A stretch of 51,728 nucleotides of DNA from a virus. Both the position numbers and the translations under genes were made by a program. The stretch is taken from the IMG/VR virus record IMGVR_UViG_3300042326_001602, positions 1-51,728 of that record. One strand, given 5' to 3'. Positions 380 to 51,728 of the stretch are shown here, piece after piece. Position 1 is the first letter of the stretch; each line of letters begins with the position of its first letter. The notes beneath the pieces are model-generated. The model ran no database searches, was not told the origin of the DNA, and saw only the letters and a program-made list of their open reading frames with translations.

Positions 380-395
380 CCCGAAAGGAACACGC
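380..395 (+). promoter_or_regulatory. Conserved CGAAAGGA Shine-Dalgarno leader
   Basis: The leader CCCGAAAGGAACACGC sits directly before the GTG at 396. The same CGAAAGGA(A)CACG core precedes genes at 32306, 32903, 33340, 33536 and, in a looser form, 34751. It fixes the GTG start here. CC-GAAA-GG can form a mini-hairpin with a GNRA loop. Confidence 0.7.
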
Positions 396-26116: not shown

Positions 26117-26435
26117 GATCCTTGCTCTCTTGGAGGGACTGAACGAGCTTGGACGTCGAGCTGATCTTCACCGTCTGGTTGCCCTCGACGTGCGTGATCT
26201 CGGCGTTCCGGCTCTGAATGATACCGTTGATCTCCGCCGTCTCCCTCACGACGCCGCGCAATTGCTTCATCGCAGCCATCGCCACCTTCGGGTCGGGATC
26301 ACGGCTGAACTCGACCAGCCGCTCGACCTCCTCCCGCACCTCCCACCCGCTCGCCTTCAGCGCGAACGCAACGCCATCAAGCCCGAAGTACGAGCGAATC
26401 GTCTCATCCCCGGACTTTGCTGGAAGCTGCTTCAA
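26055..26435 (-). CDS. Possible small terminase subunit, 126 aa
   Basis: The start is TTG at 26435, joined as TTGA to the stop of the 678-aa gene, with GAGGTGG upstream. The helical sequence includes SYFGLDGVAFALKASGWEVR and VERLVEFSRDPDPKVAMAAM, plausible for a small oligomeric DNA-recognition subunit; a C-terminal linker leads to PESLPFAAQFIPARNS. The 62-bp overlap with the next gene is unusually long. The terminase assignment is inferred from position only. Confidence 0.5.
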   Translation of the reverse strand: MKQLPAKSGDETIRSYFGLDGVAFALKASGWEVREEVERLVEFSRDPDPKVAMAAMKQLRGVVRETAEINGIIQSRNAEITHVEGNQTVKISSTSKLVQSLQESKDHVQVPESLPFAAQFIPARNS

Positions 26436-28468
26436 CGCCCACCTCGCTTCCGAGCCATCCTTGAGAACAGGGTTTCCTTGACGCTAGGTCCCTTGCCTGG
26501 TCGCTTGTAGATTGGCTTTCGGGAAGCCGGACCAACGCTACGAGGCTTAGCCGATTCACTCCGAATTTCGGGGACAGAGGCGCCAGCATTACGGGTCTCA
26601 ACAAGTCTCATACGCCCCGAAGGGCCGTAGTACTCGGTTACGTCAACAGGCAGGTGGGGCCCCATCTCCCTCGGATTCAAGACCGCACCGTGAGAAAGAA
26701 GGATGGAACGAAGTCGATCCATCTTCTCCGCAGGAGAGAACTCGGTTCGGGCCCTGCGCTTTCGGGCAAGAGCGCGGACTTCAGCAGGCGTAATCTCGGG
26801 GCCAGCACCGCGTGGCTCGGGCGAAATCTGCGGCTGCGGCTTCTTTCGACTGGCAGCACCCTTTGCTTCACGTTCCTTCCGCTCGCTCTCCATCAGGTTG
26901 AGAACGGTCTGGCGCAAGGTGTCTCCGCTACCAACACCCTCAGCCTTGGCCTTCTCTACCAGACGGCGCAGCTCGGCAACTCGCTTTGAGGTGAACTTGG
27001 GCTTTCTCCGCCCGACGACTCCGCCAGGCACCTGCTCAAGGCGACCTTCCTTCAGGTCTTCAATGTCCTTACGGGACATCCGCATCTTCGGCCGAGCCTT
27101 CTGCACGGCAAAGGCAAGCTCGGTGGGGGTCTTGCCGAGCGCCTTGGCCTCGCGCCCGGCGCGGCCGCGCTGCTTCTCCTCAACGCTCTTTACCTTCTTC
27201 GACTCAACGCCGGTAACGGGATTGGTTGTACGGCTGGGCTCGAAGGTTCCCTTGGTGCCGAACATCTTGTTCAGCGTGCGCTGAAGGAGGATTGCCGCCT
27301 TGGCGTTTCCTTCCTTCGCCATCTGGTTCAGCCGAAACAGCTTTGACTTCTCGAACGGAGGACGGCTGGCTTCGGGGAAGGCCGAGCGCTCGTTGTACAT
27401 CTTCTCAAGCAAGCTGTTGCTGTAATACCTGATCTTCCCGTCCTTGAACGTCCAATTGAGCGGCTTGCCTCCGCTGTCGGTCTTGCGGTCGTACGGCTTG
27501 GTAAGCACGCGATCGCCGGGCTGCGGAGTCCCCACCATCCGAACCTTGCCGCCAGTGGCACCTGGTCCCTTGTAGGGCTCGTCGGGAGTACTTGCGCGCT
27601 CCTCCCGTTCCTCTGCGCCCTTGGCCTGAACCATCAGGCTCTCAAACATTTCCTTGCGCTTCTCCTTGTTGAGGCGTCCGCGCATGCGCTTCTCGACGGT
27701 AATGAGCTCCTTTGCGACCTTGCGCTTCGCATCCTCGAGCATCTGCTCGACCTGCGGAGGCGTTCGGTTCATCTGCTCCGCAATGTCGTAGATGTTCTGC
27801 TTGTGGCGAATGGAGAGCATCAGCGCCTGTCGCTGCTCTTCCGGCAGCGCGTCGATGATCTTGTTGATTGCGCCACTCTGGAGAAGTTCCGTGACGGGAG
27901 CGCGGGTCACGCCCTTGCGCCTGCCGCTGGGCAGTGGAACTCGGTCTGCCTTGTCCTCGCGCTTGATCACGCGATCGGCAAGCTTGCGACCGGCATCGCT
28001 GTCAAGGGCTTCGATTGCCGCGTCATACAGTCGGGGAGGAAGAGACGTCTCAATTCCCTGACTTGCCTTCTGGTTCTTGCGGAGACCTCGGATCCGCTTC
28101 ATCGCCTCGACTTCTTCACCGGTGCCTGGATCCCGCTCGCCGGCAATTGGGTAGCGCTCGTCGATCTTCTCAAGCGGATCAACAAACTGCTTGACCCGGC
28201 TAGCAGCGTCCTTTCGCTTGATCACGTCCTCGAGGTTGAATAGAACGGCCGCAAGTACAGGAGCCCTGTCCGGCGTGATGTCCTGGTTTTTGACAAGCTT
28301 GTTTACGAGAAGGCGAACCGTGTTCTTTCCGAAGGGATCCTTGGCCTTCGCCATCAGCTCAATAGCCATCTGAATCTCGGCCTTGGAAAACGTATTGGCC
28401 TTGTTCGGGCCAATAGGCTTCTTGTAGCCACCATCAGAAGGAATTGTTTTAGGTTCCCTGCTTGCCAT
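26432..28468 (-). CDS. Basic 678-aa protein with sigma-region-4-like HTH
   Basis: Residues 203-257 (about 27698-27862) read KIIDALPEEQRQALMLSIRH, then KQNIYDIAEQMNRTPPQVEQ and a basic helix MLEDAKRKVAKEL. This closely follows sigma-70 region 4 grammar: LPEEQR.AL.L, an IAE.M....VE.ML helix-turn-helix, then a basic helix. The remaining sequence is extremely Lys/Arg-rich and low in hydrophobics, with motifs such as KTPTELAFAVQKARPKMRMS. No clear region 2 is visible. It could be a late-transcription factor or a DNA-binding virion protein using a sigma-like fold. It lies upstream of the terminase genes. Confidence 0.6.
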   Translation of the reverse strand: MASREPKTIPSDGGYKKPIGPNKANTFSKAEIQMAIELMAKAKDPFGKNTVRLLVNKLVKNQDITPDRAPVLAAVLFNLEDVIKRKDAASRVKQFVDPLEKIDERYPIAGERDPGTGEEVEAMKRIRGLRKNQKASQGIETSLPPRLYDAAIEALDSDAGRKLADRVIKREDKADRVPLPSGRRKGVTRAPVTELLQSGAINKIIDALPEEQRQALMLSIRHKQNIYDIAEQMNRTPPQVEQMLEDAKRKVAKELITVEKRMRGRLNKEKRKEMFESLMVQAKGAEEREERASTPDEPYKGPGATGGKVRMVGTPQPGDRVLTKPYDRKTDSGGKPLNWTFKDGKIRYYSNSLLEKMYNERSAFPEASRPPFEKSKLFRLNQMAKEGNAKAAILLQRTLNKMFGTKGTFEPSRTTNPVTGVESKKVKSVEEKQRGRAGREAKALGKTPTELAFAVQKARPKMRMSRKDIEDLKEGRLEQVPGGVVGRRKPKFTSKRVAELRRLVEKAKAEGVGSGDTLRQTVLNLMESERKEREAKGAASRKKPQPQISPEPRGAGPEITPAEVRALARKRRARTEFSPAEKMDRLRSILLSHGAVLNPREMGPHLPVDVTEYYGPSGRMRLVETRNAGASVPEIRSESAKPRSVGPASRKPIYKRPGKGPSVKETLFSRMARKRGGR

Positions 28469-32207: not shown

Positions 32208-32243
32208 CTCCCCCCCTGCTGCGAGGGGGGAGATGTCTTTTCT
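32208..32243 (+). terminator. Terminator-like hairpin before the 134-aa gene
   Basis: CTCCCCCC (32208-32215) pairs with GGGGGGAG (32225-32232); ATGTCTTTTCTTT follows. The rest of the gap (32061-32207) is GC-rich with short inverted repeats such as GGGGGCCGCGCCCCC and no convincing gene. Confidence 0.75.
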
Positions 32244-32284
32244 TTCCGCACGTCGCGGATACGGCATCTTCCTCTATACCACAC

Positions 32285-32305
32285 GTTCCGCGAAAGGAAC
32301 ACGCC
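32285..32305 (+). promoter_or_regulatory. Hairpin-embedded Shine-Dalgarno leader
   Basis: GTTCC (32285-32289) can pair with GGAAC (32296-32300), placing the AAGGA ribosome-binding site partly in the stem; the loop is GCGAAA. The ATG at 32306 follows five bases later. The related leader at 32883 has the compensatory version GTCC/GGAC. Confidence 0.6.
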
Positions 32306-32710
32306 ATGAAGCAGTCCGAGTTCGCCGCCATCGTCGCCTCGCTCCAGTCCGAGATCGCCTCGCTCAAGCAGCAGGTCGCCGCCCGCCCCGCGATGGAGCG
32401 CGACACCACGGTCGTCGTCGTCGACCGCCTCGCGCCGTCGGAGTCCGGCAAGCCCCGCGTCCGCGTCCGCATCAGCAACACGGGCGCGAAGCCGATCGTC
32501 GTGCAGCCGGGCACCGAGCACTCGTTCTTCGCCAACGAGTTCGTCCGCGACATCAGCGGCGGCAAGCGCAACGGCTTCTACTGCCGCCCGATGACGGACG
32601 GCGTCAAGCCGATCGGCGAGCAGCAGGGCTCGCCCGCCGCCGCGAACGCGATCGCCGCGGCCACGCCTGCGCCGGCGCCGGTCGCGTCTGACGACGATCA
32701 GAAGTTCTGA
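32306..32710 (+). CDS. Hypothetical protein, 134 aa
   Basis: The ATG at 32306 is set by the CGAAAGGAACACG leader. Residues 1-30 form a helix/coiled coil (IVASLQSEIASLKQQVAARP); 35-110 form a beta-rich domain (TTVVVVDRLAPSESGKPRVR ... GKRNGFYCRPMTDG); the C-terminus is an Ala/Pro linker ending in SDDDQKF. The acidic tail recalls SSB-type tails, but the core does not match an OB fold that I can recognise. Strong codon bias and a private leader suggest high expression. Confidence 0.65.
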   Translation: MKQSEFAAIVASLQSEIASLKQQVAARPAMERDTTVVVVDRLAPSESGKPRVRVRISNTGAKPIVVQPGTEHSFFANEFVRDISGGKRNGFYCRPMTDGVKPIGEQQGSPAAANAIAAATPAPAPVASDDDQKF

Positions 32711-32726
32711 GCCGATGCAGCGGGAG

Positions 32727-32752
32727 GGGGGCTGGAGCAATCCAGCCCCCTT
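32727..32752 (+). terminator. Perfect GNRA-loop hairpin terminator
   Basis: GGGGGCTGGA (32727-32736) and TCCAGCCCCC (32741-32750) enclose a GCAA tetraloop, 15 bp after the stop of the 134-aa gene. Only two T residues follow, so it may mainly protect the mRNA 3' end. Confidence 0.7.
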
Positions 32753-32815
32753 CGCGCCGGCTAGCGCCTGGGCGTCCCTGGGGCGACCTTTCCCACCCCG
32801 CCGTCTCTGCTGTTT

Positions 32816-32850
32816 CCCCCTCTCTCTGGGGAGGGGGTGTTTTCTCTTTC
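32816..32850 (+). terminator. Second terminator before the 127-aa gene
   Basis: CCCCCTC (32816-32822) pairs with GAGGGGG (32831-32837), then TGTTTTCTCTTTCC. A second, perfect 8-bp hairpin follows at 32854-32873 (GACGCAGC, GCGT loop, GCTGCGTC). Together they separate two small expression units. Confidence 0.7.
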
Positions 32851-32882
32851 CCCGACGCAGCGCGTGCTGCGTCCTCACCACA

Positions 32883-32902
32883 GTCCGCGAAAGGACACGA
32901 CC
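32883..32902 (+). promoter_or_regulatory. Hairpin-embedded Shine-Dalgarno leader, second copy
   Basis: GTCC (32883-32886) pairs with GGAC (32893-32896) around GCGAAA; CACGACC leads to the GTG at 32903. The stem differs from that at 32285 by a coordinated change on both sides, which supports pairing. Confidence 0.6.
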
Positions 32903-33286
32903 GTGCACAAGACGAACGAACTCACCGACTTCCTCCACGCCGCAATCACCGCTCAGAAGGTGATCATCGAGCGGCAGGCGGACCTGATCCAGCGCCAGAT
33001 GGAGATGATCCGGACGCTCATGTCCGACCAGCGTCAGATGGTGCAACTCGTCAGGACGCTGAGCCTCGACACCGTCGCCCAGAAGAACGACTACACCGCC
33101 CCGGAGGTCGTCCTCGACGGCAGCGCCGTCAAGTGGGAAGACGACAAATCGGAGGACATGGACCCGGAGCCGCACGGCAGCCGCGACCCCATCGGTCCGC
33201 GTGACCTGATGCCCGAGTGCCAGGCCTGCGGCAACTCCGTCCCGCTCGACGCCGACTGCCGGTGCTCCGGCTGCGGCAACGGCTGA
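32903..33286 (+). CDS. Coiled-coil protein with C-terminal zinc ribbon, 127 aa
   Basis: It starts with GTG at 32903, placed by the conserved leader. Residues 1-55 form a helical, amphipathic coiled coil (IIERQADLIQRQMEMIRTLM). A linker of acidic and Pro residues follows. The C-terminal 24 residues hold a Cys cluster: ECQACG (C106, C109), DCRCSGCG (C119, C121, C124), typical of a small zinc-binding ribbon. First of three consecutive small Cys-rich proteins with the same type of leader. Confidence 0.65.
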   Translation: MHKTNELTDFLHAAITAQKVIIERQADLIQRQMEMIRTLMSDQRQMVQLVRTLSLDTVAQKNDYTAPEVVLDGSAVKWEDDKSEDMDPEPHGSRDPIGPRDLMPECQACGNSVPLDADCRCSGCGNG

Positions 33287-33323
33287 TCCACCGGGGCGAT
33301 GCGACCGCCCCATTCCCCCACCA

Positions 33324-33339
33324 TCCGAAAGGACACGAC
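33324..33339 (+). promoter_or_regulatory. Shine-Dalgarno leader, third copy
   Basis: TCC-GAAA-GGA (33324-33333) forms a minimal GNRA-loop hairpin; CACGAC then leads into the ATG at 33340. Confidence 0.55.
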
Positions 33340-33504
33340 ATGAAGACCTGCCCCAACTGCGGCGGAAACATCATCGGTGACGGCGTCACCACCCCTCTCG
33401 CCTGCGAGAACGTCGACACCGCTCTCGTACCCGAAGAAGTCGACGGCGACATCATCTTCTGCGACCGCTCCGAGGACTACGAAGACCAGGTCCTCCCACG
33501 CTGA
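33340..33504 (+). CDS. Small Cys-containing protein, 54 aa
   Basis: It begins MKTCPNCGGNIIGDGVTTPL, a CxxC zinc-ribbon-like start (C4, C7), with further Cys at ACENVD and IFCDRS. The rest is acidic (DRSEDYEDQVLPR). Start fixed by the conserved leader. Likely a metal-binding mini-protein; function unknown. Confidence 0.6.
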   Translation: MKTCPNCGGNIIGDGVTTPLACENVDTALVPEEVDGDIIFCDRSEDYEDQVLPR

Positions 33505-33521
33505 ACCCACCCACACCCACC

Positions 33522-33535
33522 CCGAAAGGACACGC
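33522..33535 (+). promoter_or_regulatory. Shine-Dalgarno leader, fourth copy
   Basis: CCGAAAGGACACGC immediately precedes the ATG at 33536; CC and GG can close a GAAA loop. Confidence 0.55.
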
Positions 33536-33685
33536 ATGGACAACCCAACCCGGTGCGAGTGCTGCGACAAGGAGTTCACCGACTCCGACGACGCCTGGCC
33601 CTGCACCCACCACGAGCCGGACGGAACCCCCGACACGTACTACCTCTGCCGCAACTGCATGGGCGTCGACCCCAAGGAGACCTGA
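33536..33685 (+). CDS. Small Cys/His protein, 49 aa
   Basis: The sequence holds CECCDKEF, WPCTHHEP and YYLCRNCM, giving CxCC, CxHH and CxxC clusters suited to a zinc-finger-like fold. It ends 1 bp before the next gene. Start placed by the conserved leader. Function unknown; probably nucleic-acid or protein binding. Confidence 0.6.
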   Translation: MDNPTRCECCDKEFTDSDDAWPCTHHEPDGTPDTYYLCRNCMGVDPKET

Positions 33686-33686
33686 C

Positions 33687-33902
33687 ATGGACCCGATCAT
33701 CTACCTCACCATCTCGCAGACCCAGGGACAGGCCGTCATGCAGATCACCGGCCAGCGCATCCAGGACCTCTCGGAACGGCTCACCTACGACCACACCACC
33801 ACGTCCCGCTCCGACCTGCTCTGCCAGATCAAACTCCTCACCGAAATCATCGCCGAGGTCAACCACGCCATCCGCCGTGCCGATGAAGCCAAGACGTTCT
33901 GA
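33687..33902 (+). CDS. Hypothetical protein, 71 aa
   Basis: It starts with ATG 1 bp after the previous stop, behind AAGGAG. A short beta start (MDPIIYLTISQTQGQ) is followed by a helix (TGQRIQDLSERL) and a second helix (LLCQIKLLTEIIAEVNHAIR). No family is recognised. It is co-transcribed with the Cys-rich trio and ends at a terminator. Confidence 0.6.
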   Translation: MDPIIYLTISQTQGQAVMQITGQRIQDLSERLTYDHTTTSRSDLLCQIKLLTEIIAEVNHAIRRADEAKTF

Positions 33903-33913
33903 CTTCCTCCTTT

Positions 33914-33953
33914 CACCCTCTCTCCTGTGGAGAGGGTGTTCTCTTTCTTTCTT
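33914..33953 (+). terminator. Terminator
   Basis: CACCCTCTC (33914-33922) pairs with GAGAGGGTG (33930-33938); TTCTCTTTCTTTCTT follows. A strong intrinsic terminator. Confidence 0.8.
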
Positions 33954-33987
33954 ACCCCTGGGACTACCACTCCCACCTCGTTCTCCT

Positions 33988-34043
33988 CCCGTGCGGGGGG
34001 AGTGCTTGCGCACCCCCCGCACGGGGGTGCAACCGTTTCTTTC
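33988..34043 (+). terminator. Very stable terminator before the second SSB-like gene
   Basis: CCCGTGCGGGGGG (33988-34000) pairs perfectly with CCCCCCGCACGGG (34013-34025), 13 bp, then GTGCAACCGTTTCTTTC. The pyrimidine-rich tract that follows carries the CGGAGA ribosome-binding site for the gene at 34076. Confidence 0.8.
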
Positions 34044-34075
34044 TTCTTACTTCTTTCCTTACTTCGGAGATTGCC

Positions 34076-34678
34076 ATGACTGAGATCAAGTTCGACTCGC
34101 TCGCCAACGCCGACTTCGGCACGTTCGCCAACCCGACGCCGACCGACTACCCGGCCGGCCGCTACTCCGCCACCATCAACCGCGTCGTGCCCCAGACCGC
34201 CGACAAGTCCGGCAAGTTCTGCCTCCGCTTCCAGGTCCAGATCGCCGTCGACAAGTTCGAGGGCAAGCCGCAGCTCCGCCTGAACGACTTCGTCTCCTTC
34301 ACCGGACCGAACGGCTTCATGTGGGCTGGTGCCAACGTCTTCTGCGACCTGGCCGTCATCTCCGGCCTCGACCGCGACGAGGTCTACGCCAGCTGCAAGA
34401 ACCTCGCCAAGGCCCTCGAGTCCGGTGACATCCTCGCCATCCGCGACACCTTCCTCGCCTTGGCCGAGGTCGCCAAGACGTTCGTCGGCTCCCGCATCGC
34501 GCCCAACATCGCTTGGACCGAGGACGGGAAGTTCGCCAACGTCAGGGGCAGCAAGACCGTGCCGTCCTATGTCTCCGCCCGCAACGAGACCGACCCCGGC
34601 GCCTCGTTCACCGGCGACGACTGCGACATGGAGCGACAGCCCAAGCCGAAGCGCAACCTGAAGGCTGTCCGCCGCTGA
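34076..34678 (+). CDS. SSB/DUF669-like protein, 200 aa (putative)
   Basis: The opening half has an OB-fold-like alternation of strands with YPAGRYSATINRV and FCLRFQVQIAVDKFEGKPQL; helices follow (EVYASCKNLAKALE; IRDTFLALAEVAKTFV), and the C-terminus has a basic tail (ERQPKPKRNLKAVRR). The opening pattern parallels the 173-aa SSB-like protein at 51182 (WPAEGQHEVFVSSLNVR ... ISFRYQLI). A single-strand-binding or recombination-mediator role is inferred. It follows a terminator and a pyrimidine-rich leader, the same layout as at 51182. Confidence 0.5.
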   Translation: MTEIKFDSLANADFGTFANPTPTDYPAGRYSATINRVVPQTADKSGKFCLRFQVQIAVDKFEGKPQLRLNDFVSFTGPNGFMWAGANVFCDLAVISGLDRDEVYASCKNLAKALESGDILAIRDTFLALAEVAKTFVGSRIAPNIAWTEDGKFANVRGSKTVPSYVSARNETDPGASFTGDDCDMERQPKPKRNLKAVRR

Positions 34679-34692
34679 TCCATCCGCTCGCT

Positions 34693-34727
34693 CCCCCACC
34701 GGCCTCTGCTCTGCACGCCGGTGGGGG
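34693..34727 (+). terminator. Hairpin after the second SSB-like gene
   Basis: CCCCCACCGGC (34693-34703) pairs with GCCGGTGGGGG (34717-34727), an 11-bp perfect stem with a 13-nt loop. No T-run follows; the next leader (GCGAAAGGAATCCG) begins 9 bp later. Confidence 0.65.
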
Positions 34728-34750
34728 ACGGGCATCGCGAAAGGAATCCG

Positions 34751-35350
34751 ATGTCCACCCACAAGCCAATGCTCCCCTCGCTCGCCGTCTCAGCCCTGCT
34801 CGTCCCGCTTCCATTCTCGTCCTGGGTCGTCCGCCACGCGGAGATCGACGCTCACACCCCGTCCACCCTGCCCAACCTCCCGCTCACCGAGGACCACCGT
34901 CCCTACCTCTCGCCCCCATCCTCCGACGCCATCGAGCCCATCCCGTTCCCGGCCGAGGACGACGGCACCTTCGCCGAGGAGTTCTCGTTCCGCGCCGCAT
35001 GGGAACTGACCCGATCGCTCGAGTCCCTGCCCCCAGCCTGGCGCTCCGCGTACCGTCGCTGGAACCGCACCCTCTCCGAGCAGCACCGACTCTCGATGGC
35101 CGCAGGCGGAGCGCACCGCTTCGCACAGCACGAGCCCATCGTCATCCACACTCCGCCCCGTCCTCCAGCCCCGACCGTCATCCTCTCCGGCCACGCGACC
35201 GATGTCCGGCGCGCCATGCGTTCGCGCCTGTACCGCCGGCTCGGTATCGTCCGCTGCGCCCGCACCAATCGCCTTGCCCGCGACCCCGACTCGTCGTGGA
35301 CATCGCACGCACCACTCGACCGCCGCGTCCTGTGGGCGCAGCCCTCCTGA
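34751..35350 (+). CDS. Hypothetical protein, 199 aa
   Basis: ATG at 34751 follows the AAAGGAATCCG variant of the conserved leader. The N-terminal 27 residues are apolar with Ser/Pro (PSLAVSALLVPLPFSSWVV) and could be a signal or membrane segment. A long Pro-rich, acidic linker follows, then a basic Arg-rich helical C-terminal half (RSAYRRWNRTLSEQHRLSMA; RRAMRSRLYRRLGIVRC). No family is recognised. Confidence 0.55.
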   Translation: MSTHKPMLPSLAVSALLVPLPFSSWVVRHAEIDAHTPSTLPNLPLTEDHRPYLSPPSSDAIEPIPFPAEDDGTFAEEFSFRAAWELTRSLESLPPAWRSAYRRWNRTLSEQHRLSMAAGGAHRFAQHEPIVIHTPPRPPAPTVILSGHATDVRRAMRSRLYRRLGIVRCARTNRLARDPDSSWTSHAPLDRRVLWAQPS

Positions 35351-37319: not shown

Positions 37320-37560
37320 ACCAAGCCACCTTGGACCAGCCCGTCGGCCGCGACCTGGTCCGCGTGGGGCGCACCGCAGATCCTCTGCCCGTACAGCGGA
37401 GGGAAGGTGCGTCCGTATCCCACAGCCACCCGTCCTCCTCTGAGCACCGTCGCCTCTGCTACTCCCTGCCGTGATATCCGCGCACAGTACGCACGCACAC
37501 TACGGTCACCACGATAAGGCTCTGGCTGGTGGGGTACATTCATCAACCCCGAGGTCACAC

Positions 37561-51181: not shown

Positions 51182-51703
51182 ATGCCCATTGAGAACAACG
51201 TCAAGGCCATGTTCAACTCGCTCAACACCGCGTTCGCGCAGGCTCAGCCTGACAACGGCATGGGTGCCGGCGGCTGGTGGCCGGCCGAGGGTCAGCACGA
51301 GGTGTTCGTGTCCAGCCTGAACGTGCGCCCGAGCGAGTACAAGCTGCCGGACGGCCAGAAGGTCGCCGGCACGGAGATCAGCTTCCGGTACCAGCTCATC
51401 AACGACACCGACTCCCCCAACGAGCCGCGCTCGTTCGACGGCAGCGCCTTCCGCCTGCCGCAGGACACCAGCGTCCTCGACGACAAGGGTCGCATGCGCG
51501 TTGACATCGAGATGCGCCGCCTGAAGGGCCACCTCCAGACCATCCTCCGCCGTGACGTCAAGGATATCGGAACCGCTATCGCGGACGCCGATGCCAAGAT
51601 CAACGGTCAGGACGCGGTTGCCGTCGTCGTGAAGTGCCAGTACGACAACGTCAACGGAAAGATCTACCGCAAGGACTTCCTCGTGAAGCCCCTCGCCGGC
51701 TGA
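51182..51703 (+). CDS. SSB-like protein, 173 aa
   Basis: Predicted single-strand-binding protein partner of the Sak4-like ATPase, by position and by an OB-like strand pattern: GGWWPAEGQHEVFVSSLNVR, then GTEISFRYQLINDTDSPNEP, and a C-terminal strand VVVKCQYDNVNGKIYRKDFL. A helix (IEMRRLKGHLQTILRR) lies between. The ATG at 51182 (CGGAGAATCAG upstream) is preferred to one at 51059, which lies in the Sak4 gene. The gene runs to the edge of the terminal repeat; its 3' part is repeated at 3-248. Confidence 0.65.
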   Translation: MPIENNVKAMFNSLNTAFAQAQPDNGMGAGGWWPAEGQHEVFVSSLNVRPSEYKLPDGQKVAGTEISFRYQLINDTDSPNEPRSFDGSAFRLPQDTSVLDDKGRMRVDIEMRRLKGHLQTILRRDVKDIGTAIADADAKINGQDAVAVVVKCQYDNVNGKIYRKDFLVKPLAG

Positions 51704-51728
51704 TCTGTTACACTACCCAGACCCCACC
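51456..51728. repeat. Right copy of the terminal direct repeat
   Basis: Corresponds to bases 1-273 with three substitutions (51580, 51616 and 51708). The window stops inside the CCCCACCAGC motif whose complete left copy lies at 267-276. Confidence 0.93.

Follow-up and report, generated by a model that had tools for sequence, protein, structure and literature searches.

Does a virus keep an RNA hairpin around the ribosome-binding sites of its small early genes, or do the bases flanking a conserved Shine-Dalgarno (SD) sequence only happen to be complementary? The question is raised by two leaders in IMGVR_UViG_3300042326_001602, a virus record in IMG/VR of 51,728 bases and GC 0.61, which is called the window here. 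In these leaders the SD sequence GAAAGGA is embedded in GTTCC-GCGAAA-GGAAC at 32285 and GTCC-GCGAAA-GGAC at 32883. An earlier note, made from the sequence alone, had pointed to these two hairpins, and its sequences and positions are exact; it also held that their arms change together on both sides, which the two window sequences by themselves only suggest but which relatives bear out in three gene families. Our comparison thus supports, at the level of sequence, an SD placed in a hairpin whose arms covary among orthologous leaders, beyond the conservation of the SD itself.

The leaders share one order of parts (Table 1): the end of a gene, a terminator-like hairpin (A) that in some cases has a T tail, a second hairpin B, a spacer of 9-25 nucleotides in most leaders, hairpin C with the SD, and the start codon. 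Hairpin B had been missed by the earlier note. At the position of A1, most related leaders also carry a big GC-rich hairpin. In C the A-tract of GAAAGGA usually lies in the loop, while GGA falls within either the 3' arm or the loop, only a few nucleotides from the start codon that follows; the stem is weak, with an energy of about -2 to -8 kcal/mol. For the second window leader, the minimum-energy structure is B followed by C, at -21.3 kcal/mol.

The relatives are uncultivated contigs, about 17 of them close (polymerase 82-99% identical) and about 30 distant (31-53%). Among cultured phages, the region searched gave no nucleotide match, the DNA polymerase had distant matches only, and no close relative was found. 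For the comparison of leaders, overlapping pieces of 20 related phage records were joined, and SD sites with an open reading frame (ORF) behind them were taken. When the relatives were searched for the element, as had been proposed, the SD hairpin was found with differing stems in leaders orthologous to those of the two window genes (families 1 and 2): TTGTCC-CGAAA-GGACAA, TGCTC-GAAAG-GAGCA, GCTC..GAGC, TGCTC-GCGAAAG-GAGCA, GGCCT-GAAAGG-AGGCC and TGGCC-AAAGGA-GGCCA. A third orthologous family, family S, is an unrelated gene of the distant clade, and its hairpins over the SD are TGCATTC..GAATGCA, GCATTC..GAATGC, TTGCGTT..AACGCAA, ATTGTATT..AATACAAT and ATTAC..GTAAT.

The control was to exchange 5' flanks between the leaders of orthologues and to compare native with swapped pairing. 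Native pairing was better in families 1 and 2 (z -3.3, p 0.0005) and in the three families together (-4.25 versus -2.52 kcal/mol, z -4.7). With the window, and hence the discovery sequences, left out, the three families gave z -4.1 (p ~4e-5) by energy and z -4.75 by stem length; the outcome that the earlier note had named as fatal to its idea, a lack of covariation in relatives or SD conservation only, is therefore not what these families show. Moreover, stems of at least 4 base pairs surround AAAGGA at 12/55 sites before starts versus 1/57 sites that are not before a start. Because the hairpin around the SD covaries between orthologues of families 1, 2 and S, hairpin C appears to be more than a conserved SD.

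Hairpin B, 28-44 nucleotides upstream of the SD A-tract, is statistically stronger than C. Its stems are unrelated between lineages, and its loop is RYGT or RYGTN; the loops, written as N-Y-G-T-N, are mostly GCGTT, ACGTT, GTGTT or ATGTT and are closed by C-G. Examples in relatives are GCGTGGC-GCGT-GCCACGC, ACCCGGC-GCGTT-GCCGGGT, CTACCGC-GTGTT-GCGGTAG and TCGGGC-ACGTT-GCCCGA. A stem of at least 4 base pairs with an RYGT loop is found in 13 of the 17 leaders of families 1 and 2, against a mean of 0.1 for shuffled leaders, and other loop classes of equal degeneracy occur in at most one leader each. Native B stems average 5.7 base pairs versus 2.0 when their arms are swapped, and a descriptor combining B and C finds 16 sites versus 2-4 in shuffled genomes. 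A covariance model of B alone found, for the most part, the sites it was trained on, and otherwise weak matches; B is therefore not a genome-wide repeat.

The same succession of B and C precedes the genes of family S, which encode proteins of 202-223 amino acids, 32-50% identical, in distant relatives of 37-56% GC. In the same place these leaders carry GGATGGC-ATGTT-GCCATCC (L032), GATCAGAC-ATGTT-GTCTGATC (L036) and CTTGGT-ATGTAT-GCCAAG (L042); these three were kept, and several other B matches in distant genomes (L033, L038, L040 and L044) were discarded, since they seem to fall within coding sequence. The family S proteins (L046 6381-7004, L032 556-1161 and orthologues) match nothing in Pfam or PHROG beyond chance level. 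Their structural model is a beta-rich, OB-like fold with weak Foldseek matches, none below E 0.001, to PrgE, LEF-3 and single-stranded DNA-binding proteins (SSBs), so that family S is possibly a new phage family of such proteins.

The two hairpins, the covariation in them and the order in which they stand are properties of the aligned leaders, and what they do has to be read from these. With somewhat better than even confidence, we take both leaders to be cis-acting mRNA elements of translational control, in which C would hold or present the SD and B would probably be bound by a protein. From the pairing we infer that the leaders act as RNA, that C may limit translation and that B may be a protein site. 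C would fold over the SD and leave the initiation site partly closed; with so weak a stem, initiation would depend on opening by the ribosome or by a factor. A loop kept on a freely changing stem, as in B, usually marks recognition of that loop by a protein. The likely mechanism is binding of B by a protein of the phage or the host, which would shift the balance of C and so repress or activate early genes together as a set.

Several observations weigh against this reading. In family 1 alone the swap test of C is not significant (p 0.096; 0.30 without the window), because many members share GCTC/GAGC. Hairpin C is absent from one orthologue of family S (L035) and one of family 2 (G006), and the gene families were chosen after the hairpins had been seen. 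The pair table of B (90.8% of cells paired versus 57.2%; covariation score 0.859 versus 0.197) is biased because its rows were selected for pairing; a fair test is given by the scan against other loops. A run of TTTTT comes directly after hairpin B in L036, where B may be a terminator in its own right. Finally, for the first window leader (32243-32311) RNAfold predicts as minimum-energy fold a competing long-range helix in place of B and C; within it (32245-32295) the 3' arm of B1, TCGCGGA, pairs with TCCGCGA of C1. This helix, which could be a switch, is treated as a coincidence because it was not seen by eye in other lineages.

The alternative that survives best, possible if doubtful, is that the weak hairpin C alone reduces translation or sets its timing, with the ribosome, or ribosomes upstream, opening it and no trans-acting factor needed, and that B is a separate hairpin of stability, processing or termination. 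The energies of C do fall where opening makes a difference, C is paired in several leaders that lack a clean B, the T run of L036 points in the same direction, and T4 e, soc, 49 and I-TevI provide precedents (PMC3014915). The conserved YGT loop of B on its free stem nevertheless calls for a recognised loop, and the order and spacing of B and C are kept, both of which argue against this alternative.

Less probable still is that GAAAGGA is simply a strong SD and that complementary flanks arise by chance in C-rich leaders. The 3' tail of 16S rRNA ends in ...CCUCCUUUC. GAAAGGA matches that tail, and the over-representation of CGAAAGGA in the window (9 copies versus 1.8 expected) is, by itself, therefore SD conservation. 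Six copies directly precede ORF starts of the + strand (382, 32291, 32888, 33326, 33523 and 34738), and only two of these six have a stem of at least 4 base pairs. C-rich flanks often pair with GG: after shuffling or swapping, about 36-39% of them attain -2 kcal/mol. A test over all 47 AAAGGA starts together is weak (-2.24 versus -1.84). Simple conservation does hold for the sites at 382, 33326 and 33523, and probably for 34738. The earlier note had counted the shorter versions at 33324, 33522 and 380 as the same element; their stems have 2 to 3 base pairs (CC-GAAA-GG; TCC-GAAA-GGA at 33324), and they are plain SDs that fold no better than shuffles (33315-33345, z -1.1; 33508-33541, z +0.16; 372-402, z +0.31). 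Of the five sites at which it saw a partly paired SD and a tuning of translation, the idea thus stands for two, where the SD hairpin covaries and translation control is the natural reading. At 34738 the arm-swap test among orthologues gave no signal (p 0.13 and 0.46), and this leader and the three short versions were rejected as members of C for want of a pairing signal. For families 1, 2 and S combined, SD conservation is an unlikely explanation, given the within-family swap tests that exclude the window, the stems of 5-7 base pairs and unrelated sequence in orthologues, and the presence of B beside C.

It is very improbable that B works at the level of DNA or in the course of transcription, as a nut/boxB-like antitermination site or an N4-like hairpin promoter of a phage RNA polymerase just after A. 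In favour of this, A and B are nearly adjacent, which leaves no room for a usual promoter, and boxB and N4 promoters are small hairpins with variable stems. Against it, boxB sites stand upstream of the terminators they overcome and not downstream, boxA was not identified by eye, the covarying C right at the SD points to translation, and the N4-type promoter was discarded as no RNA polymerase was found among the tested window proteins.

Compared with known systems, the leaders are nearest in mechanism to the SD-sequestering hairpins of T4 and the gp43 and gp32 operators (PMC3014915), and in anatomy to the start-associated sequences (SAS) of cluster K mycobacteriophages (PMC3203893). No Rfam family matched the window at the gathering score, and searches by E-value gave chance-level matches only, none of them close to the gathering score. 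T4 genes e, soc, 49 and I-TevI and Aeh1 mobE have the SD or the start codon in a hairpin (PMC3014915), and C1, C2 and their orthologues likewise have GGA or its flanks paired. In T4 gene e, however, transcripts lose the 5' arm through a late promoter, and no such promoter was seen by eye in the spacers of 9-25 nucleotides between B and C; moreover, the leaders described here add an upstream hairpin with a conserved loop. Such a hairpin, with a variable stem upstream of the SD, is found in the T4 gp43 operator (loop UAAC in T4), and B has the same character. The gp43 operator differs in loop sequence, and here one type of element precedes several unrelated genes and a protein reader of B is presumed. 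A further likeness is that the gp43 and gp32 operators act at replication genes, gp32 being the autocontrol of an SSB, there through a pseudoknot. That case is a precedent for the SSB-like family S, for which autoregulation is not claimed.

The cluster K SAS is a 13-base-pair sequence, GGGATAGGAGCCC, with upstream inverted repeats in the extended form, ESAS (Pope 2011, PMC3203893). As here, the SD is part of a short element whose outer bases are complementary, 3-7 base pairs before the starts of non-structural genes and often downstream of an inverted repeat. The SAS is a fixed sequence, whereas here the stem of C covaries and the SD alone is fixed. In five cluster K genomes, 64 of 84 sites (76%) have GGG/CCC, and 18 of 20 variants break the pairing; for the ESAS repeats, RNA pairing is not supported according to the authors (PMC3203893). 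A scan of the window with GGGATAGGAGCCC found no site at up to 2 mismatches and 8 at 3 mismatches, versus 17 expected by chance, and membership of the window element in the SAS was rejected, as there is no SAS in the window and the stems of C vary while the SAS is fixed. No B hairpin with a YGT loop was seen near starts in Pixie or Anaya. In two SAS variants of Mycobacterium phage Pixie (L142, 5523 and 7063) the outer arms change together, CGG-ATAGGAG-CCG and TAC-ATAGGAG-GTA, a hint that there may be hairpins among the SAS as well; in most of the other variants the pairing is lost.

Table 1. Parts of the two leaders, their genes, and the SD sites set apart from them.
Feature	Position	Strand	Description
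Hairpin A1, terminator-like	32208..32232	+	CTCCCCCC-9 nucleotides-GGGGGGAG, then T-rich stretch
Hairpin B1	32245..32259	+	TCCGC-ACGTC-GCGGA, loop NYGTN
Hairpin C1	32285..32300	+	GTTCC-GCGAAA-GGAAC, contains SD GAAAGGA (32292-32298)
Gene family 1	32306..32710	+	ATG start; small early protein of 134 amino acids, helix plus beta-sheet, no known family; no match in fold search
Hairpin A2, terminator-like	32816..32837	+	CCCCCTC-8 nucleotides-GAGGGGG, then TGTTTTCTCTTT
Hairpin B2	32854..32873	+	GACGCAGC-GCGT-GCTGCGTC, loop RYGT
Hairpin C2	32883..32896	+	GTCC-GCGAAA-GGAC, contains SD GAAAGGA (32889-32895)
Gene family 2	32903..33286	+	GTG start; small early protein of 127 amino acids, C-terminal zinc-ribbon-like CxxC...CxxCG
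Plain SD CGAAAGGA, outside element	382..389	+	precedes ORF of 145 amino acids
Plain SD CGAAAGGA, outside element	33326..33333	+	precedes ORF of 54 amino acids
Plain SD CGAAAGGA, outside element	33523..33530	+	precedes ORF of 49 amino acids
SD CGAAAGGA; SD hairpin without orthologue support	34738..34745	+	precedes ORF of 199 amino acids (34751)

The proteins downstream of these sites are generally small, as had been stated, the product of 199 amino acids at 34751 excepted. The further suggestion that the element lies on both sides of the genome junction is weak, 380 being an ordinary SD. The ends do carry a near-identical direct repeat (1 to ~274 and 51455-51728, with few differences and a short ORF inside), which points to a genome that is circular or terminally redundant, with variation between strains in the assembly. 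On the + strand from 30163, replication and recombination genes are found: a DNA primase-type protein, a family A DNA polymerase, a uracil-DNA glycosylase, exonucleases and a Sak4-like protein. The large ORFs of the - strand are almost without database match, most having none in PHROG or Pfam; one of 678 amino acids (26432-28468) contains a sigma-70 region 4-like helix-turn-helix at 200-250 (Pfam E 3e-7).

Two other conserved elements lie nearby. Between the genes at 34076 and 34751, element D (34693-34727) is a hairpin, CCCCCACCGGC-CTC-TGC..GCA-C-GCCGGTGGGGG, without a T tail. It is present in 9/9 aligned lineages with compensatory changes (CCAGC/GCTGG, CCGGC/GCCGG, CCGAC/GTCGG; TGC/GCA versus TGTCC/GGACA) and an invariant CCTCTG side, and the segment 34690-34756 folds at z -5.6. 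Upstream of the uracil-DNA glycosylase gene, the 23-base CTGCCGTGATATCCGCGCACAGT (37466-37488), which occurs once in the window and unchanged in many related records, is followed by the conserved GGCTCTGGCTGGTGGGGTAC, on to ~37545, and is a candidate for a promoter or a protein site.

Only a few model phages are known to have structured translation signals, and here covariation backs them in a group for which no cultured close relative was found. The leader precedes several unrelated genes, and the loop of the adjoining hairpin B is conserved over a large distance in GC and sequence. More tentatively, a modular leader made of a terminator hairpin, a YGT-loop recognition hairpin and a covarying SD hairpin might have been joined, throughout a wide clade of uncultivated phages, to early genes that are unrelated to each other, an SSB-like gene among them, and one protein reader of the YGT loop would coordinate the translation of the early set. 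The leader offers a short RNA target for finding the factor that may read it, and lets one ask whether the SAS of cluster K is a related solution.

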